A DNA stretch of 64,000 nucleotides from Polynucleobacter sp. AP-Kolm-20A-A1 (GTDB lineage Bacteria; Pseudomonadota; Gammaproteobacteria; Burkholderiales; Burkholderiaceae), in NCBI RefSeq assembly GCF_018688315.1, contig NZ_CP061315.1, forward strand, positions 1,240,001 through 1,304,000, in the 5' to 3' direction. The position numbers and the translations under genes were made by a program. Under the pieces are notes generated by a model that was given only the letters and a program-made list of their open reading frames with translations, ran no database searches and was not told where the DNA came from. This document shows, piece after piece, positions 53,473 to 64,000 of the stretch; the stretch's first letter is position 1; every line of letters begins with the position of its first letter.

Positions 53473-54336
53473 ATGGCTACAAAGAAGTCTCCAGCAAAAA
53501 AGAAAGTAGCTACCAAGGTGGTAACAAAAGCCCCTGTTAAGAAAGCTGTTAAAAAGCCTGCTGCTAAGAAAGTGGTAAGCAAGAAGACGGCAAAGAAGGT
53601 AGTGAAAAAACCAGCGGCAAAGAAAGTTGTCGCAAAAAAACCAGCAGCAAAAAAAGTAATAGCCAAGAAACCAGCAGCGAAGAAGCCTGCCGCTAAGAAA
53701 GTGGCGAAAAAGGCTGTTAAAAATGCTGCAGCCAAATCTCCTAAGGTAGATCAATACGGTCTAGAGCAGGATGATGAGTTCTATGGTCTGTACTTTGCTA
53801 AGTCCACCAAAAAAGGCTTGGTAGAAGTAAAGCCTTGCACCTTCTCTCTCATGTACTGGTGGAAAGGTTTGCTCGGCTACCCTGACATGATCGAAATCTC
53901 CAAAGGAAGCAATACTGCAATGTTGCAGTTTGAATCTACTTTTGGTGGCGGCGACTCTGGCGAAACAGAATTGACCGAAAAAGATGTCTTAGATATTGAT
54001 CACATCATTGAAGTTGATGAAGAAGAGATGCTGGTATCGCTCTACTCTTATGTACCGATCCCCGTCCCAGAGAAATTGATTGGCGCATTGGGCTTGGCGA
54101 TTCTGAATATCAACCCAGAAACCCGCTATGGCAGCCTTGAGCTATGCACTACCGATAACGAAGAAGGTGAAATTGAGCATTTCTTACGCTATCGTGCTGC
54201 AACCTACCTGCGCGGCATCAAGGCTGGCAAAGTCGAAGCTATTGAAAGCATGGTCACAAATGGCTCTGAATTATTTGGTCTTGCTTTAGATGCAATGTGT
54301 GTCAATAAGTCTATTAAGAAGTGGTTGCTAAGCTAA
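53473..54336 (+). CDS. Lys/Ala-rich histone-H1-like tail fused to an unrecognised domain
   Basis: 287 residues. Residues 1-95 are almost only Lys, Ala, Val, Pro and Thr in AAKKVVAKK-like repeats, as in bacterial H1-like proteins and AlgP tails that bind DNA or polyanions. Residues about 96-287 form an acidic, folded-looking domain not recognised with certainty; LGLAILNINPETRYGSLEL and the following helix are faintly YbjN-like. Such a basic tail on an acidic domain is unusual. Good GAAGGG ribosome-binding site. No PHO-box-like repeat in the 216-base gap before it, which otherwise holds nothing recognised except the small palindrome near ydcH. Neighbours concern polyphosphate and lipids. Confidence 0.8.
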   Translation: MATKKSPAKKKVATKVVTKAPVKKAVKKPAAKKVVSKKTAKKVVKKPAAKKVVAKKPAAKKVIAKKPAAKKPAAKKVAKKAVKNAAAKSPKVDQYGLEQDDEFYGLYFAKSTKKGLVEVKPCTFSLMYWWKGLLGYPDMIEISKGSNTAMLQFESTFGGGDSGETELTEKDVLDIDHIIEVDEEEMLVSLYSYVPIPVPEKLIGALGLAILNINPETRYGSLELCTTDNEEGEIEHFLRYRAATYLRGIKAGKVEAIESMVTNGSELFGLALDAMCVNKSIKKWLLS

Positions 54337-54683: not shown

Positions 54684-54705
54684 CTGTCACACAACTGTCA
54701 TATAT
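54684..54705 (+). promoter_or_regulatory. PHO box upstream of the histone-like/ppk2 operon
   Basis: CTGTCA at 54684-54689 and CTGTCA at 54695-54700 form an exact 11-base-period direct repeat, the PhoB recognition pattern (CTGTCAT-N4-CTGTCA type). A TATAGA at 54722-54727 could be the -10 element. The target gene starts at 54790. Both half-sites are perfect. Confidence 0.85.
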
Positions 54706-54789
54706 CCTTGAAAAGTGTCGTTATAGAACGTAGGATCGGGGTGAGGACACATATATCCACAAAATTCGTCAATTAATAGAGGAACAATC

Positions 54790-55086
54790 ATGAGTCAAAA
54801 GAAATTAGTTAAACAGTTATTAAAAAAGCTTGATAAATTAGAGTCCGACAGAGAAAAGCTAATTGATAAGCTTGCAAAAGCCCTGGATAAACTCGATAAA
54901 AAAGTAGCCGATAAGAAGGCGCCGGCTAAAAAAGCCGCGGCAGCAAAAAAACCCGCCGCCAAGAAAGTCGCAACCAAGAAGACCTCGGTAAAGAAGGTTG
55001 CCGCCAAAAAGGCACCAGCTAAAAAGGCAGCCGCCAAAAAGACTGTTGCCGCAACTAAAACGGCAACCCTAAACGAAGCCAATTAA
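54790..55086 (+). CDS. Lys/Ala-rich histone-H1-like protein coupled to PPK2
   Basis: 98 residues. Residues 1-42 are a Lys/Leu/Asp heptad-like helix (MSQKKLVKQLLKKLDKLE..., shown in part) predicted to be a coiled coil. Residues 43-90 are AAKKPAAKK-type repeats as in histone H1-like and AlgP tails. A GAGGA site precedes the ATG. The TAA overlaps the ppk2 ATG as TAATG, so the two are translationally coupled. A PHO box lies 85-106 bases upstream. Known relatives bind DNA; with a polyphosphate kinase partner, binding of polyphosphate or condensing granules is an inference. A related tail occurs in the 53473 gene. Confidence 0.83.
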   Translation: MSQKKLVKQLLKKLDKLESDREKLIDKLAKALDKLDKKVADKKAPAKKAAAAKKPAAKKVATKKTSVKKVAAKKAPAKKAAAKKTVAATKTATLNEAN

Positions 55087-55859
55087 TGAGCAAAAAGAGT
55101 AAAGATGCTCCGGTGCAGGCTAGCTATGAAGACCAACTGCGTTTACTTCAAATACAGTTAGTAAAACTGCAAAATAGCCTGATCAGTAATGGTGATCAGA
55201 TATTAGTGATACTAGAAGGTCGTGATACAGCTGGCAAAGATGGAACAATTAAAGCAATCACCCAACATTTAAGCCCGAGGGAAACTCGGGTGGTTGCACT
55301 CGGCAAACCCTCCGATAGCGAGTCTGCTCAATGGTACTTCCAGCGTTATGTAGCTCAACTCCCCATGAAGGGCGAGTTCGTATTATTTAACCGCAGTTGG
55401 TACAACCGTGCCGGGGTTGAACGTGTAATGAATTTTTGCACCAAAGACCAATACACCAATTTTATTGAGACGGTGAATGACTTTGAATCAATACTGGCAA
55501 GCTCCGGCATCACCCTACTGAAGTACTACTTAGATATTTCCAAGAAGGAGCAAGCGGCGCGACTTAAATCCCGAGAGGATGACCCCCTTAAGCAATGGAA
55601 GATTAGCCCAATTGATCAGCAGGCACAGAAAAATTGGAATGCCTACAGCAAGTGTAGAAATGAAATGCTGCAAAGTACCAGCCCTAAAGATGCTCCCTGG
55701 ACAATCGTAAGGGCCAACGATAAAAAACTAGCTCACTTGAATTTAATCAGGGATCTACTTTCCAGAGTTTCTTACCCAGGCAAAGACAAAACTTTGCTCA
55801 AGGCAGATAAAGAGATTGTCTTTAAATGGGATGGAAAGCTGTCTAAGCTCGAGAAATAA
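55086..55859 (+). CDS. ppk2: Polyphosphate kinase 2 (PPK2 family)
   Basis: 257 residues, the size of single-domain PPK2. Walker A EGRDTAGKDGTIKAI near 44-58, then HLSPRETRVVAL, and Walker B-like FNRSWYNRAGVERVM near 102-116 with the lid SREDDPLKQWKISPID near 166-181. The enzyme transfers phosphate between polyphosphate and nucleoside diphosphates or monophosphates; class cannot be fixed by eye. It is translationally coupled to the Lys-rich gene and sits behind its PHO box. Five bases separate its stop from the convergent second ppk2 gene. Confidence 0.95.
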   Translation: MSKKSKDAPVQASYEDQLRLLQIQLVKLQNSLISNGDQILVILEGRDTAGKDGTIKAITQHLSPRETRVVALGKPSDSESAQWYFQRYVAQLPMKGEFVLFNRSWYNRAGVERVMNFCTKDQYTNFIETVNDFESILASSGITLLKYYLDISKKEQAARLKSREDDPLKQWKISPIDQQAQKNWNAYSKCRNEMLQSTSPKDAPWTIVRANDKKLAHLNLIRDLLSRVSYPGKDKTLLKADKEIVFKWDGKLSKLEK

Positions 55860-55864
55860 GCTGC

Positions 55865-56770
55865 CTAGAATACTTCAGGCACATACATTTCTGGGGGAAC
55901 TGGTCCACGCAGATAATCGGGGTTATGCACCCGTTTTGGCAATGTAATTACCGGATGATCAATTTCCTGATATGGAATTTGACTCAACAAATGCGTGATG
56001 CAATTGAGGCGTGCTTTTTTCTTGTCATTAGCCGCCACCACCCACCAAGGAGCCTCAGGTATATGCGTACGTTCAAGCATTGTTTCTTTTGCTTTGGTAT
56101 ACGCCTCCCACAGCCTTCTTGCTTCTAAATCCATTGGACTTAATTTCCATTGCTTTAATGGATCATGGATGCGCATCATGAAGCGATTGTATTGCTCATC
56201 ATCGGAAATGGAGAACCAATACTTAATCAAGATGACTCCAGAGCTAATCATCATTCGCTCTAAATCCGGCACTGTTCTTAAGAACTCTTCATACTCGTCA
56301 TCAGTACAAAAACCCATTACCCTCTCAACGCCCGCGCGGTTGTACCAACTTCTATCGAATAGTGCGATTTCTCCACCAGCAGGCAAATGAGAGATATACC
56401 TTTGAAAATACCACTGCGTCTTCTCTCGCTCGTTGGGTGCAGGCAAAGCAACCACCTTACAAACACGCGGATTGAGTCGCTGCGTAATACGCTTAATTGC
56501 ACCACCTTTACCCGCAGAATCACGGCCTTCAAATAAGACAGCTACCTTAAGCTTGTTAGCTACCACCCAGTCTTGCAACTTGACTAATTCGCCCTGAAGC
56601 CTAAAAAGCTCACGGAAGTAAACATTACGCGGGATTTGTGATTGACTGTCGCCGTCAGGAGATAGGCGATCGTCATCGAGCTCCATCTCAAGTTCTTCAT
56701 CCATGCTATCAAGAATCTCTTCTTGCGCACGGCGATACCACTCAGCCATCTCTTTATGTTTTGATGTCAT
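55865..56770 (-). CDS. ppk2: Polyphosphate kinase 2 (second copy, PPK2 family)
   Basis: 301 residues from the ATG at 56770, with GGGAG six bases before it; a GTG at 56776 in frame is less likely. Walker A FEGRDSAGKGGAIKRITQRL near 78-97, Walker B-like FDRSWYNRAGVERVMGF near 138-154 with Asp where the first copy has Asn, and HDPLKQWKLSPMDLEAR near 204-220. An acidic N-terminal extension of about 60 residues distinguishes it from its neighbour. Transcribed 46 bases after the acyltransferase gene, so probably co-transcribed. The two copies appear to be paralogous subfamilies, not a recent duplication. Confidence 0.95.
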   Translation of the reverse strand: MTSKHKEMAEWYRRAQEEILDSMDEELEMELDDDRLSPDGDSQSQIPRNVYFRELFRLQGELVKLQDWVVANKLKVAVLFEGRDSAGKGGAIKRITQRLNPRVCKVVALPAPNEREKTQWYFQRYISHLPAGGEIALFDRSWYNRAGVERVMGFCTDDEYEEFLRTVPDLERMMISSGVILIKYWFSISDDEQYNRFMMRIHDPLKQWKLSPMDLEARRLWEAYTKAKETMLERTHIPEAPWWVVAANDKKKARLNCITHLLSQIPYQEIDHPVITLPKRVHNPDYLRGPVPPEMYVPEVF

Positions 56771-56816
56771 ATCCACTCCCTAACAATACTTATAACGAGG
56801 GAAGATGACACTTTTA

Positions 56817-57611
56817 TTACATCAAGCGTTGATCGCCCTTTAAATAGGCAGAAATGGCATCCTGACTATGTAATGCAAGCCATTTTCGATCCTTTGGTGC
56901 ATCAGGACTTGCACCCGATGGAGGCAGAAAGCTTAATTCCACCATGATGTTGCGGTCATTTAGGATATTAGACATAGACTCAAGCAAACCCATATCTCCG
57001 ACAAAGGCTGGCGATTCAGACCTCTCTCCAGTAAGCGTGGACCTATACGAAATAGCAAGGGAGTAAACGGGTGCCTGCGCAAGAGCTGCTGATTCAAATA
57101 AGTTCGGCTTAAAGGGAAGGACTCCCTCACCCACGGTCGAAGTTCCCTCGGGGAATATGCAGACTGACTGAGTTTCCAGCACTTCACTAACAACGCCAGC
57201 AATTTGCTTTCCGTGGCGAGCGCTATCCCTTTTGATAAATAAAGTACCCAATTGCTTAGCCATCCAACCAAAAACAGGCCACCCCTCTACATCTGATTTA
57301 GCTACGAATCGTATGGGCTTAAAAGCATTGATGGCATGAATATCCATCCAAGAAATATGATTGGCTGCAAGCAGATATGGCACAGAAGGAAGTATTCCAC
57401 TGTTATTGACCCGCAGTTGAACTCCAAAGATATTGAGTAACTTAATTGACCATTGCTGAATATGTGTACTTTTAGATTCCTGGGTGGCAAATGGAAAGCG
57501 CAAAGCCAGGGTTGCAAGGCCCACAATCACATGTCCCCATACCCGAACCCATGACCACAATGTGGTGCATGCATGCAATAGCGTCTTTTTGGGTAGCTGG
57601 TTCTGACTCAT
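56817..57611 (-). CDS. 1-acyl-glycerol-3-phosphate/lyso-ornithine-lipid acyltransferase (PlsC/OlsA type)
   Basis: 264 residues. An N-terminal membrane helix (about 20-38) is followed by acyltransferase motifs: block 1 NHISWMDI (H-x4-D) near 83-90, FIKRDSARHGK near 125, block 3 FPEGTSTVGEGVLPFKPNLF near 152-171. PlsC enzymes acylate lysophosphatidate; OlsA relatives finish ornithine lipids. An OlsB-like N-acyltransferase lies at 60006, so OlsA function is plausible. It shares the 104-base gap at 57612-57715 with divergent plcP, where a PHO box lies. The second ppk2 gene follows. Confidence 0.88.
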   Translation of the reverse strand: MSQNQLPKKTLLHACTTLWSWVRVWGHVIVGLATLALRFPFATQESKSTHIQQWSIKLLNIFGVQLRVNNSGILPSVPYLLAANHISWMDIHAINAFKPIRFVAKSDVEGWPVFGWMAKQLGTLFIKRDSARHGKQIAGVVSEVLETQSVCIFPEGTSTVGEGVLPFKPNLFESAALAQAPVYSLAISYRSTLTGERSESPAFVGDMGLLESMSNILNDRNIMVELSFLPPSGASPDAPKDRKWLALHSQDAISAYLKGDQRLM

Positions 57612-57651
57612 ATGACCTAGAAATATAAATCAAATTTGAAAAATCTTTGCC

Positions 57652-57684
57652 TCGTCACAAAACTGTCTTAGAACCGTCATGCTA
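57652..57684 (+). promoter_or_regulatory. Three-repeat PHO box upstream of plcP
   Basis: TCGTCA at 57652, CTGTCT at 57663 and CCGTCA at 57674 are spaced at exactly 11 bases, with a weaker GTTTCA at 57685. Each of the first three matches CTGTCA at five of six positions or better. CATACT at 57689 could serve as the -10. The plcP start is at 57716 or 57719. It lies in the plcP/acyltransferase divergent gap. Confidence 0.78.
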
Positions 57685-57715
57685 GTTTCATACTCGGTTG
57701 GCTTAATACTGTTTC

Positions 57716-58525
57716 ATGATGCATTACAAAGCTATCTGGATTTCAGACGTGCACCTAGGCACATCAGGGTGTCAAGCTAGCTACCTTCTGGATTTCCTTA
57801 AACATAATGAAGCTGATAAGTTTTATCTTGTGGGCGACATTATTGACGGCTGGAGACTAAAAAAGTCTTTCTATTGGCCGCAATCACACAACGACGTAGT
57901 TCAAAAGCTCTTGCGCAAGGCGCGCAAAGGTAGCGAGGTGATCTACGTCCCAGGCAATCACGATGAAAGTGCAAGACAGTTTTTTGGCCTTTCATTTGGT
58001 GATGTCAAGATTGCAGAAGAAGTAATTCATACGACCGTTGATGGAAAACGTTTATGGGTTACTCATGGCGATCAATTTGATGCAGTGATGCAATACGCTA
58101 AGTGGCTTGCCTATGTTGGAGACACACTCTACTCCTTCATTCTGTACGTGAACCGCTATTTCAACATGCTGCGGGTCAAGATGGGATTGCAATATTGGTC
58201 TCTATCTCAATATCTAAAGAACCAAGTGAAGAATGCTGTTAGCTACATTGCAGATTTTGAGCACATGATGGCCAGAGAAGCCCGTCTGCGCGGTTGCGAT
58301 GGGGTTGTATGCGGCCATATTCATAAAGCAGAAATTCGGGAGATCGATGGTCTGCTGTATTGCAATGATGGTGATTGGGTTGAAAGCCTAACAGCCCTGG
58401 TTGAAACACAAACCGGCGAACTCAAAATTATTCATTGGACTCACATTAAGGGCGAGCCTGTTGAGATTGCTCAACCTTCTCTTCCACCCGCTATCGAATC
58501 ACTCATCAAAGAGGCTGTTTTATGA
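57716..58525 (+). CDS. Metallophosphoesterase, PlcP-like phospholipase C / LpxH family
   Basis: 269 residues. Calcineurin-like phosphoesterase with all metal-site motifs: DVHLGTSG near 9-17, GDIIDGW near 41, GNHDES near 80, THGDQFD near 114, CGHIHKAEI near 201-209. The fold is annotated as UDP-2,3-diacylglucosamine diphosphatase, but linkage to an Agt-like glycosyltransferase and a PHO box matches PlcP, which releases diacylglycerol from phospholipids in phosphate-starved bacteria. No strong ribosome-binding site precedes the first ATG codons (57716, 57719). The stop overlaps the glycosyltransferase start as ATGA. Confidence 0.9.
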   Translation: MMHYKAIWISDVHLGTSGCQASYLLDFLKHNEADKFYLVGDIIDGWRLKKSFYWPQSHNDVVQKLLRKARKGSEVIYVPGNHDESARQFFGLSFGDVKIAEEVIHTTVDGKRLWVTHGDQFDAVMQYAKWLAYVGDTLYSFILYVNRYFNMLRVKMGLQYWSLSQYLKNQVKNAVSYIADFEHMMAREARLRGCDGVVCGHIHKAEIREIDGLLYCNDGDWVESLTALVETQTGELKIIHWTHIKGEPVEIAQPSLPPAIESLIKEAVL

Positions 58526-59550
58526 AAATTATGATCATCACCGATGCTTGGGATCCTCAGGTAAATGGCGTTGTCCGGACCTTAAAGCAAACTAGAGCTG
58601 AGCTAATGGCTATGGGGCATGAAGTAGAGATGATTACCCCAACAGGCTTTAAATCCATTCCATGTCCCACATATCCTGACATTGCTCTTTCACTATTTCC
58701 GGGCAAAGAGGTAGCGCGACGAATTAAAGAATTTGCGCCAGATGCAATGCATATCGCTACCGAAGGTCCGCTGGGCCTATCTGCTCGTGCATATGCCGTA
58801 AAGAATAGTCTGCCCTTCTCTACCGCCTACCACACACGCTTTCCAGAGTATGTAAAAGCCAGAACTGGCATTCCACTGGCAATTACTTACGCATTCATTC
58901 GCTGGTTTCATGGGCCTTCCATGGCAGTCATGGCACCAACCATAGTCGTGAAGGATGATCTCGAGAAGTTTGGACTGAAAAATGTTGTGCTTTGGTCCAG
59001 GGGAGTAGATCTCGATATTTTTAAGATGCAGGACTCAAAAGCCTTAAACACTGCTCACCCGATCTTCTTGTATGTGGGCCGAGTTGCTGTTGAGAAAAAT
59101 ATCAATGCATTCTTAGAAATTGATTTACCAGGCTCTAAGTGGGTGGTAGGAGACGGTCCAGCGATGGCTGGCATTAAAGAAAAATACCCAGATATTAACT
59201 ATCTAGGAGTATTGCAGCAGCACGAATTAGCAAAAGTTTATGCCGCGGCAGATGTATTTGTCTTTCCAAGCAAAACCGATACCTTTGGCCTGGTCTTACT
59301 TGAGGCAATGGCATGCGGCACACCAGTGGCTGCCTATCCAGTTACCGGCCCGATAGATGTCCTGGGCAATTCCAATGCTGGCGCCATGAATGAAGACCTA
59401 CGCGAGGCTTGTATGCGGGCCCTAAGAATTCCTCGCGAAACTGCCCGTGCACATGCAGAGAAATTCTCTTGGAGAGCCGCTTCCGAGCAATTTGCTCAAC
59501 ATTTAAAGCCTGTTCCAACGCCAGAAGTTCATGTAACGGCATTAGCCTAA
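58522..59550 (+). CDS. GT4-family glycosyltransferase, Agt-like glycolipid synthase
   Basis: 342 residues. GT-B fold: N-terminal IITDAWDPQVNGVVRTL near 5-21, EGPLGLSARAYA near 76, the acceptor region TRFPEYVKAR near 105, C-terminal nucleotide-sugar region FVFPSKTDTFGLVLLEAMACGTPVAAYP near 250-277 (in part FPSKTDTFGLVLLEAMACG) with the E-x7-E retaining motif. Coupled by ATGA to plcP. In marine alpha- and other proteobacteria the same pair makes mono- or glucuronosyl-diacylglycerol from phospholipid-derived diacylglycerol. The sugar used here is unknown. Confidence 0.9.
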   Translation: MKIMIITDAWDPQVNGVVRTLKQTRAELMAMGHEVEMITPTGFKSIPCPTYPDIALSLFPGKEVARRIKEFAPDAMHIATEGPLGLSARAYAVKNSLPFSTAYHTRFPEYVKARTGIPLAITYAFIRWFHGPSMAVMAPTIVVKDDLEKFGLKNVVLWSRGVDLDIFKMQDSKALNTAHPIFLYVGRVAVEKNINAFLEIDLPGSKWVVGDGPAMAGIKEKYPDINYLGVLQQHELAKVYAAADVFVFPSKTDTFGLVLLEAMACGTPVAAYPVTGPIDVLGNSNAGAMNEDLREACMRALRIPRETARAHAEKFSWRAASEQFAQHLKPVPTPEVHVTALA

Positions 59551-59553
59551 TAA

Positions 59554-59961
59554 ATGCCCAATATGAACTCCCCGTATCACATTGACCAAAATCCTCATAA
59601 AGGAAATAGAGGTCTTACTAGAGCATGGCATGCGGCGAAAAATTCGTGGTGCGGCTTGGTCTATGCATTCTTAGAAGAAAGTGCTTTTAGGCAAGAGCTC
59701 ACATTATTTGTGTTGCTCACACCAATCGCTGCTGTACTGCCAATCACACTACTCGAGAAGTCTCTTTTAATTTCCTCGCTAATGATGGTTTTAGTTATTG
59801 AACTTCTAAATTCGAGCGTAGAGGCGGCAATCGATCGAATCTCGTTCGAACACCACGACCTTTCCAAGAGGGCAAAAGATTTCGGCAGTGCTGCAGTGAT
59901 GATTGCCTTGTTTATTGCATCCCTCATTTGGGCTGCAGTCTGCATTCCTTTGATCCCTTAA
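59554..59961 (+). CDS. dgkA: Diacylglycerol kinase DgkA
   Basis: 135 residues. Three membrane helices (about 45-65, 68-88, 110-130) with the family motif VIELLNSSVEAAIDRIS near 82-98 that carries the catalytic Glu and Asn. The amphipathic N-terminus RGLTRAWHAAKNSWCGLVYA resembles the E. coli enzyme. It phosphorylates diacylglycerol to phosphatidate. Placed 3 bases after the Agt-like gene, it probably returns surplus diacylglycerol made by PlcP to phospholipid synthesis, opposing or balancing the glycolipid branch. Confidence 0.93.
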   Translation: MPNMNSPYHIDQNPHKGNRGLTRAWHAAKNSWCGLVYAFLEESAFRQELTLFVLLTPIAAVLPITLLEKSLLISSLMMVLVIELLNSSVEAAIDRISFEHHDLSKRAKDFGSAAVMIALFIASLIWAAVCIPLIP

Positions 59962-60005
59962 TACCCCATTAACTTTTTCTAAATTAATAATCTCTAAGGC
60001 TAGCT

Positions 60006-60929
60006 ATGTCTGATATACCGAATCCTATTGGCTCATTTGAAATTTTCCCAACCAAGAAAGTAAAAGCGCTGAAAAAAAGCGGGCCAAATCCATTTCAAAA
60101 ACTCTCTAAGAAAATAGCCAAAAAGCTGTTTGGGAAAAAATTTGTTACTAAATCAAGAGCTCAATTACGAGAAGCAGATACGAGCCCAGTCGCCGAGGTA
60201 ACAAAAGCCAAAAAGCCTACCTTTAAAATCGTCTGGGCAAGTACTCCTGGTGAGATTAAAGAGGCACAAAGGTTGCGCTATAAGGTCTTTGCTGAAGAGA
60301 TGGGTGCAAACCTAGCAAGCAACTCAGATAACTTGGATATTGATGAATTTGATGCCTATTGCGATCATTTGTTGATTCGCGACCAAGACAGCCTGAAAGT
60401 AGTTGGAACTTACCGTGTCCTTCCCCCTCATAAAGCAAAAGAAATTGGACGCCTCTATTCTGATTCTGAGTTTGACCTTTCACGCATCGACCATCTTCGC
60501 CCTCAATTGGTTGAACTAGGCAGATCATGTGTGCATCAAGACTATCGTTCTGGCGCGGTGATTATGGCTCTATGGAGTGGCTTGGCCCAATACATGCAAA
60601 AGAACAACTACGAAATCATGCTTGGATGCGCAAGCATACCTATGGCAGATGGCGGCCACTTTGCTGCAAGTCTCTATAACTCTCTAGGCAACGATCAAAT
60701 GGCGCCAACAGAATTCCACGCCTTCCCGCGCCTTCCGCTACCATTAGATAGACTAAACGGCGGCTTAGAAGTGCAGCCTCCCCCGCTGATTAAGGGCTAC
60801 CTTAAGTTGGGTGCAAAAATTTGTAGCGCACCCGCCTGGGACCCAGACTTTAATACTGCCGACCTATTAACCATGTTGCGACTATCAGATATTAATCCGC
60901 GTTATGCAAAACATTTCCTGGGCCTATAA
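60006..60929 (+). CDS. olsB: GNAT-type N-acyltransferase, OlsB-like (ornithine lipid synthesis)
   Basis: 307 residues. A basic N-terminal region (residues 15-75, Lys-rich) precedes the OlsB-type acyltransferase domain: EAQRLRYKVFAEEMGANL near 86-103, VGTYRVLPPHKA near 136, LVELGRSCVHQDYRSGAVIMALWSGLAQYM near 170-199 (in part ELGRSCVHQDYRSG), and LLPGCASIPMADG-like LGCASIPMADG near 209. Members transfer a 3-hydroxyacyl chain from ACP to ornithine or a similar amine to give a phosphorus-free lipid. Separate from the dgkA gene by 44 bases. The terminal LSDINPRYAKHFL fits the family. Confidence 0.88.
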   Translation: MSDIPNPIGSFEIFPTKKVKALKKSGPNPFQKLSKKIAKKLFGKKFVTKSRAQLREADTSPVAEVTKAKKPTFKIVWASTPGEIKEAQRLRYKVFAEEMGANLASNSDNLDIDEFDAYCDHLLIRDQDSLKVVGTYRVLPPHKAKEIGRLYSDSEFDLSRIDHLRPQLVELGRSCVHQDYRSGAVIMALWSGLAQYMQKNNYEIMLGCASIPMADGGHFAASLYNSLGNDQMAPTEFHAFPRLPLPLDRLNGGLEVQPPPLIKGYLKLGAKICSAPAWDPDFNTADLLTMLRLSDINPRYAKHFLGL

Positions 60930-60952
60930 AGTTCAAACGGAATTTAATTAAT

Positions 60953-60983
60953 AAAAAGCCACTTCAGAACGAAGTGGCTTTTG
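60953..60983. terminator. Bidirectional rho-independent terminator
   Basis: GCCACTTC pairs with GAAGTGGC (8 bp, 5-base loop; extendable with A/T pairs to 12) and is flanked by five A and four T. It lies between the convergent olsB-like gene (ends 60929) and the exopolyphosphatase gene (ends 61009). Confidence 0.88.
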
Positions 60984-61008
60984 TATTTATATTTAACTGT
61001 AATTTTGC

Positions 61009-62583
61009 CTACTTAAAGCTTACTTGATAAGAGCGACCTACCCTCTCCCACTCTGCAGCCTCTTTGAGAAGACTAAATTCTGTTAGGGGATGCTCTGTAG
61101 CCCACTCCTTCGAAAGGCTTACCAAGTAGGAGCCATCGCGCTCAGAAACCTTTACCTTAGGAAAGCTGGTGTCATTGCGTCCGCGACAAAGAACTTGAGC
61201 TAATCTCAAGCAAAAGAGCATGCGCCAGTCTTCAAAACTAGAGTTGTTGGCCAACTTACCTAATTTGCCGGTATGGCCAATGAGAAGCGCGGCAAGTCTG
61301 GCTTGATCATTCTTCGAGAAGCCAGGCATATCTGCATTGCCTGCGATATATGCAGAGTGTTTGTGATACCCGTTATGGGAAATCGACAATCCGATCTCAT
61401 GCAAATTTGCTGCCCACTGTAATAAGGCAACATTGTCAGCCCTACTTTCTGATTCAGGCTTAGGAAGTTGCTGCAAAAAATCTGCCGCTAATTTACCGAC
61501 TCTAGCGGCCTGCTCTCGATCAACTGCATATCGCTGCATAAACTGCTCTACAGTCACATAGCGCATATCATGATGTTGTGATCTACCTAGCAGGTCATAT
61601 AAGACGCCGCTACGTAACGCAGCATCTGTAACTTCCATTTCTTCGATACCCAACTCATCAAACGCCGCTAACATAATAGCTAGACCCCCTGGCCACACTG
61701 CCCGCCTGTCATCCTTTAAGCCAATAAGCTCTACTTGGTTGACATGCTCATACTTGAGGAGGTGTTTTTTGAGATTTTTTAAGCCTTCGCGAGTGATCAG
61801 CCCACTAGCGCCGTTTACGCGACCCATGGTTAGGCCATCGCCCTGTCCATTGAAGTTGTTATTAGCAATTAGCTCAGCCAATGCCCTGGCTGTTCCTGAT
61901 GATCCAATAACTTGATTCCAGCCGCTCTTTAGATAGGCGCCTGAAATCACTTGAATTTCTCGACGAGCGGCTAACTCCGCTTCTTTAAATGCGTGGGCAT
62001 CAATATTTCCCTTGGGGAAAAAGCGCAAGCTGTGTGAGACACATCCAATATAAAGACTCTCCATCAGCTTTGGCTCGTAACCTTTGCCAATAATGAATTC
62101 AGTCGAGCCACCACCAATATCCACAACTAATCTATTGCCCTGCACAGCAGGCACTTCATGTGCCGCCCCAATATAGATAAGTCGAGCTTCCTCCACGCCA
62201 GCAATCACTTCAATTGGGAACCCTAATGCTTCTTGTGCGTCCTCCACAAATTGCTGAGCATTTTTAGCAACTCGCAATGTGTTGGTGGCAACTGCCCGAA
62301 CATTGGCAGGGTCAAATCCACGAATGCGCTCACCAAAGCGTCTGATTGCTATGAGCCCGCGTTGGTATGCATCATTGCCTAATAGCTTATTTTCAGTGAG
62401 GCCCGCTGCTAAGCGCACCGTTTCGCGCAAAGTATCAATGGGGCGTAGCTGGGTACCAGAGGGAGTATTGACAGCTTGAGCAACAAGCATGCGAAAACTA
62501 TTCGATCCTAAATCTACCGCAGCTACAAGCTCTGCAGGATTTGCTAAAGGATCTACGGGATTGCTGGCCAAAATATTCCCCAA
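61009..62583 (-). CDS. ppx: Exopolyphosphatase / guanosine pentaphosphatase (Ppx/GppA)
   Basis: 524 residues. ASKHA fold: nucleotide-phosphate loop VDLGSNSFRMLVAQ near 24-37, RAVATNTLRVAKN near 99, VDIGGGSTEFIIG near 149-161, IGSSGTARAL near 226. A C-terminal HD-like domain from about 330 with HEIGLSISHNGYHKHSAYI completes the Ppx2-type protein. It degrades polyphosphate from chain ends or pppGpp. The start is a TTG at 62583, with no better ATG nearby; an upstream GDCCVxC-type gene is 108 bases away. It opposes the two PPK2 enzymes. Confidence 0.93.
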   Translation of the reverse strand: MGNILASNPVDPLANPAELVAAVDLGSNSFRMLVAQAVNTPSGTQLRPIDTLRETVRLAAGLTENKLLGNDAYQRGLIAIRRFGERIRGFDPANVRAVATNTLRVAKNAQQFVEDAQEALGFPIEVIAGVEEARLIYIGAAHEVPAVQGNRLVVDIGGGSTEFIIGKGYEPKLMESLYIGCVSHSLRFFPKGNIDAHAFKEAELAARREIQVISGAYLKSGWNQVIGSSGTARALAELIANNNFNGQGDGLTMGRVNGASGLITREGLKNLKKHLLKYEHVNQVELIGLKDDRRAVWPGGLAIMLAAFDELGIEEMEVTDAALRSGVLYDLLGRSQHHDMRYVTVEQFMQRYAVDREQAARVGKLAADFLQQLPKPESESRADNVALLQWAANLHEIGLSISHNGYHKHSAYIAGNADMPGFSKNDQARLAALLIGHTGKLGKLANNSSFEDWRMLFCLRLAQVLCRGRNDTSFPKVKVSERDGSYLVSLSKEWATEHPLTEFSLLKEAAEWERVGRSYQVSFK

Positions 62584-62691
62584 TAATGGAATGCTGTATC
62601 AATTATGTCTATTTTATGTAAAAACCATGACACATTGATGAAATCCAATACCAGCCTATCTGGCTGGGATATGCGGAATAGAGAGCCCTGG

Positions 62692-62904
62692 TTAGGCTGC
62701 TAGATTTTGCTCTGAGCTTGAGCAATCACGATTACCAAAGCTACATAAAATGCAGCAATCGCCTGACTTTGGCTTCAGAATCGCACTGCAAGATTGGCAG
62801 CGAAATAGATGTTGAGAGCTGCCATGCTCGATGTCGATAACTTCTGCTGCTTGGCAATGGGGGCAGGTAACAATAGACTGCGGATAGTTGATGGTCTTAT
62901 TCAC
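62692..62904 (-). CDS. Small GDCCxxC Cys-rich zinc-ribbon-like protein
   Basis: 70 residues from a GTG at 62904, since no ATG is in frame. Cys pattern: CPHC near 14-17, CQSC near 35-38, then GDCCILCSFGNRDC near 48-61. The last matches the conserved GDCCVxCSYG signature of small proteins sometimes labelled mercury transporters because some lie in mer regions; here there are no mer genes. Metal binding is likely by Cys spacing. It precedes ppx on the same strand. Function unknown. Confidence 0.75.
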   Translation of the reverse strand: MNKTINYPQSIVTCPHCQAAEVIDIEHGSSQHLFRCQSCSAILKPKSGDCCILCSFGNRDCSSSEQNLAA

Positions 62905-62926
62905 AATGCAATACTGAATCAGAATT

Positions 62927-62948
62927 GTGTCAAGAATATGTCAACTAG
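62927..62948 (+). promoter_or_regulatory. Candidate PHO-box-like repeat
   Basis: GTGTCA at 62927-62932 and ATGTCA at 62938-62943 are an 11-base-spaced direct repeat (TGTCA-N6-TGTCA), oriented toward the small Lys-tailed gene at 63063 about 115 bases away. Each half matches CTGTCA at five of six. No clear -10 could be chosen. Weaker evidence than the two other PHO boxes. Confidence 0.45.
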
Positions 62949-63062
62949 GGTATCCCTATCGGCCCACCAGTACCGCCATCCAGATTGTTTAAACCAAAGA
63001 AGTCAGCGCTGTCATATTTCTTTGCTAGGATTATTACTACTTAATCCATGGGCTTGATAAGC

Positions 63063-63263
63063 ATGAGCAAATATCAATACGAAGATGCCGTAAAACAACT
63101 ACAAGAGTCGGGTAGCATTGGTTTAGTGGACTTAAAAAGTCTCCCCCATGACGATCTCGTGGAACTGCTGGAGGAAATTAAGGTTTGGTGTCTTTATGCC
63201 AATGGCAAAGCTGATAAGCTGCCAAAAGAATCCAAGAAAAAGAAAAAGAAGAAAAAGGACTGA
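63063..63263 (+). CDS. Small hypothetical protein with poly-Lys tail
   Basis: 66 residues from the ATG at 63063 (an in-frame ATG at 63048 adds five residues; neither has a strong ribosome-binding site). Residues 1-50 contain an acidic helix LKSLPHDDLVELLEEIKVWCLYANGKADKL (in part LPHDDLVELLEEIK). The last 13 residues are almost all Lys (ESKKKKKKKKD). No family was recognised. It lies between the ppx-linked Cys-rich gene and the convergent phoR-like gene, and a PHO-box-like repeat is upstream. The Lys tail resembles polyanion-binding sequences, but that is inference. Confidence 0.65.
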   Translation: MSKYQYEDAVKQLQESGSIGLVDLKSLPHDDLVELLEEIKVWCLYANGKADKLPKESKKKKKKKKD

Positions 63264-63267
63264 GTGA

Positions 63268-64000
63268 TTAAACAGCAATCCTATCTTTTGGGAAGCGCAA
63301 GGTAAATTTACTACCCCTACCTGGCGTGCTTTCGATAACTAGCTGTGCTTGATGTCTATTGGCAATATGTTTAACAATAGCAAGACCGAGGCCAGTTCCA
63401 CCCGTATCCCTTGAGCGACTTCTATCCACTCGATAAAAGCGCTCTGTGAGTCGCGATAAATGCTCTGATGCTATGCCTGGACCAGTATCCGTTACTGAGA
63501 ACTCACCCTGCCCTTGGTCATTCACATTCCACTCAACACCAATTGACCCAACATCAGGGGTGTAACGAATTGCATTGGAAACCAAATTACTAAATGCGGA
63601 AAGAATCTCCCTTTCATCGCCTAACAAGTTCTGCCTTGAATTGACATCGAAGTTAAATGAATGCTTTCCTTGAGAAAGCGCTTCAGCATCATTCTTCAGC
63701 AAGGCCATTAAGGTTTCAACCTTAACCACAGTATTAGTAGCGGGCAATGCATTGGATTCCAAATTGGCGAGTGTTAACAGATCCTCAACCAAGCTCTTCA
63801 TCCTCTGAGCCTGAGACATCATCATGTCAAAGTATTGATCCTGCTGCTCCTTCTTTAGATCTAGAGATTGAACGGTTTCCAAGAAACCCATCAGCACTGT
63901 AATTGGAGTTCGCATCTCATGGGAAACGTTAGCGACGAAGTCACGGCGCATCGCATCTGCTTTTTGCAAATCGGTGACGTCCTGCACCAATAAAAGATGA
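63268..64000 (-). CDS. phoR: Phosphate-regulon sensor histidine kinase PhoR, C-terminal part
   Basis: The last 244 codons; the gene runs off the right edge (full PhoR is about 430). The incoming frame reads LLLVQDVTDLQKADAMRRDF, the end of a PAS domain joined to the dimerisation helix. The phospho-acceptor H is in VSHEMRTPITVLMGFLET. N box NLVSNAIRYT, G1 DTGPGI, F box ERFYRVDRSRSRDTGGTGLGLAIVKH (in part GTGLGLAIVKH) are intact. The DVT-MRRDFVANVSHEMRTP region strongly resembles PhoR. PhoR phosphorylates PhoB when phosphate is low. phoB is presumably just beyond the window. Confidence 0.9.
   Translation of the reverse strand, partial: HLLLVQDVTDLQKADAMRRDFVANVSHEMRTPITVLMGFLETVQSLDLKKEQQDQYFDMMMSQAQRMKSLVEDLLTLANLESNALPATNTVVKVETLMALLKNDAEALSQGKHSFNFDVNSRQNLLGDEREILSAFSNLVSNAIRYTPDVGSIGVEWNVNDQGQGEFSVTDTGPGIASEHLSRLTERFYRVDRSRSRDTGGTGLGLAIVKHIANRHQAQLVIESTPGRGSKFTLRFPKDRIAV

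Follow-up and report, generated by a model that had tools for sequence, protein, structure and literature searches.

Why should the gene of a small lysine- and alanine-rich protein directly precede a polyphosphate kinase gene, behind an apparent PHO box? This question is raised by a locus of Polynucleobacter, a genus of freshwater bacteria with small genomes. In the window (the whole 64,000-nucleotide stretch of Polynucleobacter sp. AP-Kolm-20A-A1 analysed here), two genes on the + strand form the unit, an ORF of 98 aa (54790-55086) followed by a PPK2 gene (55086-55859), with the TAA stop of the first overlapping the ATG of the second as TAATG. Both coordinates and sequence agree with the preliminary description, which had reported this 98-residue ORF with its overlap and also a perfect repeat with 11-base spacing upstream, of which an exact copy occurs at 54684-54700. 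The elements of the unit are:

54684..54702, + strand: predicted PHO box with two half-sites of 7 bases, spaced 11 bases apart (exact repeat; top match of a pstS matrix in the window, 20.5 bits)
54708..54736, + strand: core promoter TTGAAA-N17-TAGGAT, just 3′ of the PHO box and absent from the preliminary description (from the sequence; aligned in 22 of 22 upstream regions of the window type)
54790..55086, + strand: H1-like gene, 98 aa, Lys/Ala-rich, with a helix at residues 3-42 and a disordered tail of KK repeats (ORF, domain searches, alignment, AlphaFold2)
55086..55859, + strand: Asn-type class I PPK2 (FNRSWYNR), its start overlapping the H1-like stop (TAATG) (TIGR03707, motif, structure alignment)

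The protein encoded by the first gene is modelled by AlphaFold2 as one helix, residues 3-42, followed by a tail of low confidence. It carries a net charge of +23, with a lysine pair about every 5 residues. An alignment of 30 relatives shows nine invariant columns, all of them in the first 30 residues, and a tail of variable length in which mostly the lysines are conserved; overall, the protein spans 63-123 aa across 83 loci (88 minus five that are broken, cut, or show a gene gap of more than 60 bases). Although the tail is similar in composition to those of HC2 and the Burkholderiales H1-like proteins, the scores against HC2 (PF07382; 35.8 bits, gathering score 40) and the histone H1-like DNA-binding protein model NF038053 (35.5 bits, curated cut-off 80) both lie under the cut-offs, so the protein is termed H1-like by composition and not as a family member. 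Neither CHAD (PF05235) nor the phasin models of Pfam and NCBIfam gave a match up to E 0.1. Just 5′ of the unit, another Lys/Ala-rich protein is encoded (53473-54336, + strand), wherein an N-terminal 85-residue AAKK tail is fused to a 202-residue part without Pfam match; this latter part recurs with 93-95% identity in 6 of the nine named loci, which are the named records with a near PPK2 relative (eight Polynucleobacter and one Burkholderiaceae MAG).

The second gene encodes an enzyme with the family and fold of PPK2 (TIGR03707, 342.6 bits, cut-off 301.8). Residue N107 of its WYNR motif aligns with position 153 of 6dzg_A (N153 of S. meliloti), and an Asn after Walker B is described as the class I PPK2 signature (PMC8776046). 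However, where class I enzymes such as those of F. tularensis and S. meliloti carry the Walker B Asp of the DRS motif, all 110 loci that could be read have Asn, so that the linked type reads FNRSWYNR and not FDRSWYNR, whether or not the H1-like gene is present. The same letters are those of the deposited mutant 5llf D117N, and the PPK2 of M. ruber seems to be naturally Asn at the DRS position, a positional match inferred from entries named N121D. Among the papers searched, none mentions both polyphosphate kinase 2 and D117N. We considered the Asn as the mark of a dead kinase and make no such claim, because it is found throughout the type, also in other genera (L160-L170) and seemingly in M. 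ruber. Since class I PPK2s vary in direction, often favouring the consumption of polyphosphate while some of them synthesise it (PMC8776046), the Asn-type kinase may work in either net direction.

How stable is this pairing? A survey of 151 genomes of the genus, the window genome included and with completeness down to 56%, matched a PPK2 of any kind in 122. The linked type, classed by reading the match list, was present in 102 genomes, and all 102 loci were fetched: 88 have an H1-like ORF directly upstream of the Asn-type ppk2 (97 of 111 loci in a wider set that includes the nine named loci, at least some of them from the same genomes). The remaining 14 comprise 12 PPK1-bearing genomes, one decayed pair (G107) and one contig edge (G140), in a genome whose H1-like gene lies on another contig. 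The paired unit occupies different positions among the genomes and is found at most 60 kb from pstS in 31 of a hand-picked set of 34. The spacing of both genes in the 83 loci is an overlap in 28, 0-10 bases in 16 and 11-60 bases in 39, and therefore the exact TAATG overlap, as described for the window, is not genus-wide. The H1-like family as a whole is present in 96 of the 151 genomes (E 1e-6), six of which show no Asn-type ppk2 in the match list: in one the kinase gene is present with an unread stretch (G134), two are contig ends (G136, G094), one is decayed (G102), and two have orphan H1-like genes with no ppk2 within the 5 kb read (G087, G137). There is also a second H1-like copy without ppk2 nearby in G117. 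The G087 orphan (L292, 2394-2654) lies about 210 bases from pstS, in divergent orientation. Broken kinase genes occur in L019 (G105), L113 (G116), L101 (G107) and L294 (G102), and in three of these (L019, L101, L294) the H1-like gene, too, is broken or short.

Outside the genus the picture differs. Among 200 genomes of the family, 42 gave H1-like matches at E 1e-5 or better, and the strong ones (57-122 bits) belong to 15 genomes, all of this genus, whereas the other 27 show weak matches of 27-37 bits, mostly to the tail only. Thus, the linkage, for which the preliminary description had proposed a search among Burkholderiaceae, is conserved within the genus but, in this sample, does not extend across the family. 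Moreover, the 11 Asn-type loci of other genera (L160-L170) show no Lys-rich ORF of at least 50 aa in the roughly 1.5 kb upstream; in seven of them (L161-L167) an ORF that looks FtsH-like by eye lies close to ppk2. For the loci of the window type (L003-L023 versus L024-L032), a PPK2 tree of 58 chosen rows and the ppx tree disagree, a hint that the unit, or parts of it, may have been exchanged.

Upstream of the pair the order is CTGTCACACAACTGTCAT at 54684, then TTGAAA-N17-TAGGAT, then the 98-aa gene. The stretch CTGTCACACAACTGTCA (54684-54700) is the sole exact copy in the 1.92-Mb genome (1,921,418 bases). The bare repeat pattern is not enriched, with 5 window matches against 5.15 expected at up to 2 mismatches and 2 genome matches against 4 for the reversed control at up to 1 mismatch, so that the significance of the box rests on position and conservation. 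We rejected the idea of a chance motif on another ground: a matrix built on 26 pstS promoters taken from other genomes, the window genome's own pstS being excluded, ranks the site first in the window. Two cores 11 bases apart occur in 27 of 30 pstS promoters, and the window site likewise has two pstS-like half-sites with this spacing near a promoter, as expected of a predicted PhoB site of the Pho regulon. With the same matrix, all 21 window-type loci exceed the 95% level of shuffled sequences and 19 of them the 99% level, compared with 15 and 6 of the 65 other loci (L033, L035-L040, L008, L019, L048, L113 and upstream pieces shorter than 150 bases were omitted). The preliminary description was therefore right about a PHO box ahead of the unit in the window, where it is pstS-like, yet outside the window-type loci a full box is not typical.

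Most of the other loci keep just one half-site, in a constant position relative to the core promoter. The footprint GTCA-N7-TTG-N20-TA[GC][GC]AT is present in 21 of 21 window-type and 59 of 65 other loci (80 of 86), and in 0 of 4300 shuffles; the alignment of the core promoter covers 22 window-type upstream regions, L008, L019 and L035-L040 not being included. One may then ask whether the unit answers to a regulator other than PhoB that recognises one TGTCA half-site at constant spacing to the -35 element, the extra half-sites of the window type being secondary. The 59 of 65 other loci with one half-site fixed to TTG, mostly without a second, speak for such a regulator, but the 11-base-spaced half-sites of the window type match the pstS sites of other genomes, and we regard this explanation as rather improbable. 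For the window and the loci most like it, these sites give good support to the predicted control by the Pho system, which may or may not apply to the others.

The unit also borders on what may be called a phosphate island (55865-64000), with PHO-like sites ahead of three units (the second ppk2, a plcP/agt-like pair and ppx), and with genes for an acyltransferase, DagK, an Acetyltransf_5 protein and a sensor kinase besides these. The five best matrix sites of the window lie ahead of the H1-ppk2 unit, the plcP-like gene (in two registers), the second ppk2 and ppx, and pstS is located about 14 kb beyond ppk2. The names PlcP, Agt, OlsA, OlsB and PhoR are our assumptions, suggested by domains and place. 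The features of the island are:

55865..56776, - strand: second PPK2 (FDRSWYNR), convergent (profile match); present in 9 of 9 named loci with 95-98% identity
56804..56822, - strand: PHO-like site upstream of the second ppk2 (14.6 bits, ranking third in the window)
57652..57681, + strand: PHO-like array ahead of 57716-58525 (16.7 and 10.8 bits, two registers)
57716..59550, + strand: metallophosphoesterase and family 4 glycosyltransferase (Pfam domains), which we take to be a PlcP/Agt-like lipid remodelling pair
61009..62583, - strand: Ppx/GppA-family exopolyphosphatase (Pfam 242.4 bits; TIGR03706 310.4 bits, cut-off 307)
62626..62644, - strand: weak PHO-like site ahead of ppx (8.1 bits; the next unrelated site of the window scores 7.9)
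63268..64000, - strand: part of a sensor histidine kinase (HisKA and HATPase_c), presumably PhoR-like by its place

The strongest clue to the role of the H1-like gene comes from the slot that it occupies. In three PPK1-bearing genomes (G001, G049, G061) the order is ppk1, CYTH-CHAD, Asn-type ppk2, so that a CYTH-CHAD gene fills the place of the H1-like gene; in G123 an extra ORF lies between CHAD and ppk2. CHAD domains bind polyphosphate, and a basic polyphosphate-binding role has been proposed for them (PMC6537752). The H1-like protein has no sequence relation to CHAD, and a slot shared with a known polyphosphate binder is a hint, albeit one that strengthens the polyphosphate link suggested at the outset. 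Of the 151 genomes, 26 have CHAD; 17 of these belong to the 46 that carry PPK1 and 9 to the 105 that lack it, and no CHAD was detected in the window genome.

The window genome also gave no match to PPK1 (TIGR03705), which is present in 46 of the 151 genomes (45 above the cut-off). The H1-like gene occurs in 6 of 46 genomes with PPK1 versus 90 of 105 without (Fisher p 8e-18), and in 4 of 35 versus 71 of 80 once poor genomes are removed. Published genome announcements fit this picture, with ppk2 in the PnecC strains KF022 and KF023 but not in KF032 (PMC10019162), and both ppk and ppk2 in two PnecA strains (PMC10112219). Despite this p value, a repeated replacement of PPK1 was rejected, because a quick tree of ppx, drawn for 80 of the 137 genomes that have this gene, reduces the PPK1 difference to one change, against six for the H1-like gene, and offers only one independent pair. 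On the same tree the unit has been lost repeatedly. An H1-bearing group still has PPK1, which suggests that the H1-like/ppk2 pair came before the PPK1 loss, but this order is not sure, since the unit may have been exchanged. It is a bolder, though rather unlikely, proposal that the pair forms a self-contained make-and-pack cassette replacing PPK1 and CHAD, in which the Asn-type PPK2 would act as a synthase on a tail scaffold and so allow the loss of PPK1.

The closest published precedent is AlgP of Pseudomonas aeruginosa, an H1-like protein that localises to polyphosphate granules, and to the nucleoid when polyphosphate is absent; either Ppk1 or Ppk2A alone suffices for granules (PMC9239181). 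Both proteins share a Lys/Ala-rich H1-like tail after a helical N-terminus, a polyphosphate link and a starvation context. However, the KPAA tail of AlgP alone measures 154 aa, against 63-123 aa for the whole protein here, whose tail is short and carries, in place of KPAA repeats, a lysine pair roughly every 5 residues. Unlike AlgP, moreover, the H1-like gene adjoins a kinase gene, behind a PHO box; the parts covered of the AlgP paper mention no kinase gene beside algP. The initial view of an undescribed system must be narrowed accordingly, as an H1-like polyphosphate-granule protein was already published. In the literature seen, AlgP was the single such example, and no paper was found naming an H1-like/ppk2 gene pair.

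A different precedent would be offered by PhaM and PhaF, granule proteins with histone-like DNA-binding tails (PMC13052382), and the H1-like protein could similarly tie PHB granules to the nucleoid and merely share an operon with ppk2. A PHA synthase is indeed encoded in 145 of the 151 genomes, although with phaC so nearly universal a PHB link by co-occurrence cannot be discriminated and was set aside. Since the H1-like gene adjoins ppk2 and not phaC, and the window protein matches no phasin model, we consider a PHB role very unlikely. Somewhat less remote, but still doubtful, is a general nucleoid protein that stands before ppk2 only because both are needed in starvation: its low-complexity Lys/Ala tail resembles those of DNA-binding H1-like proteins, and orphan copies occur. 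Against this, 88 of 102 genomes keep the gene adjacent to ppk2 although the place of the pair differs among them, and a polyphosphate-binding CHAD protein occupies the same slot in three relatives.

We slightly favour, over these possibilities, an AlgP-like role in a Pho-controlled two-gene unit, wherein the H1-like tail would bind polyphosphate and DNA and keep PPK2 and polymer together. Under phosphate starvation, PhoB bound to the 54684 box would act together with the TTGAAA/TAGGAT promoter to drive both genes, and the TAATG overlap would keep the translation of the two proteins together. PPK2 would transfer phosphate between nucleotides and polyphosphate, the 40-residue helix could let the H1-like protein self-associate or dock, and the disordered lysine-pair tail would bind polyphosphate and probably DNA. 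Kinase, polymer and nucleoid would thereby stay together, with the H1-like protein acting like AlgP and the CHAD proteins. This AlgP-like reading draws on the 88 of 102 adjacencies, the conserved helix, the pstS-like PHO box, the CHAD slot, the AlgP precedent and the proximity to pstS. Against it count the PHO box in only 15 of 65 other loci, the orphan H1-like genes, the partnerless Asn-type ppk2 and the repeated loss of the unit, and also the possibility that genomes without PPK1 may not make polyphosphate at all.

The conserved pairing suggests that the H1-like protein holds or organises the polyphosphate of its kinase. With so short an H1-like gene next to a kinase gene across a whole genus, the unit would offer a minimal system to ask whether a Lys/Ala tail organises polyphosphate, and also whether PPK2 can substitute for PPK1. 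More generally, the pairing bears on the question of what links polyphosphate granules and the nucleoid.
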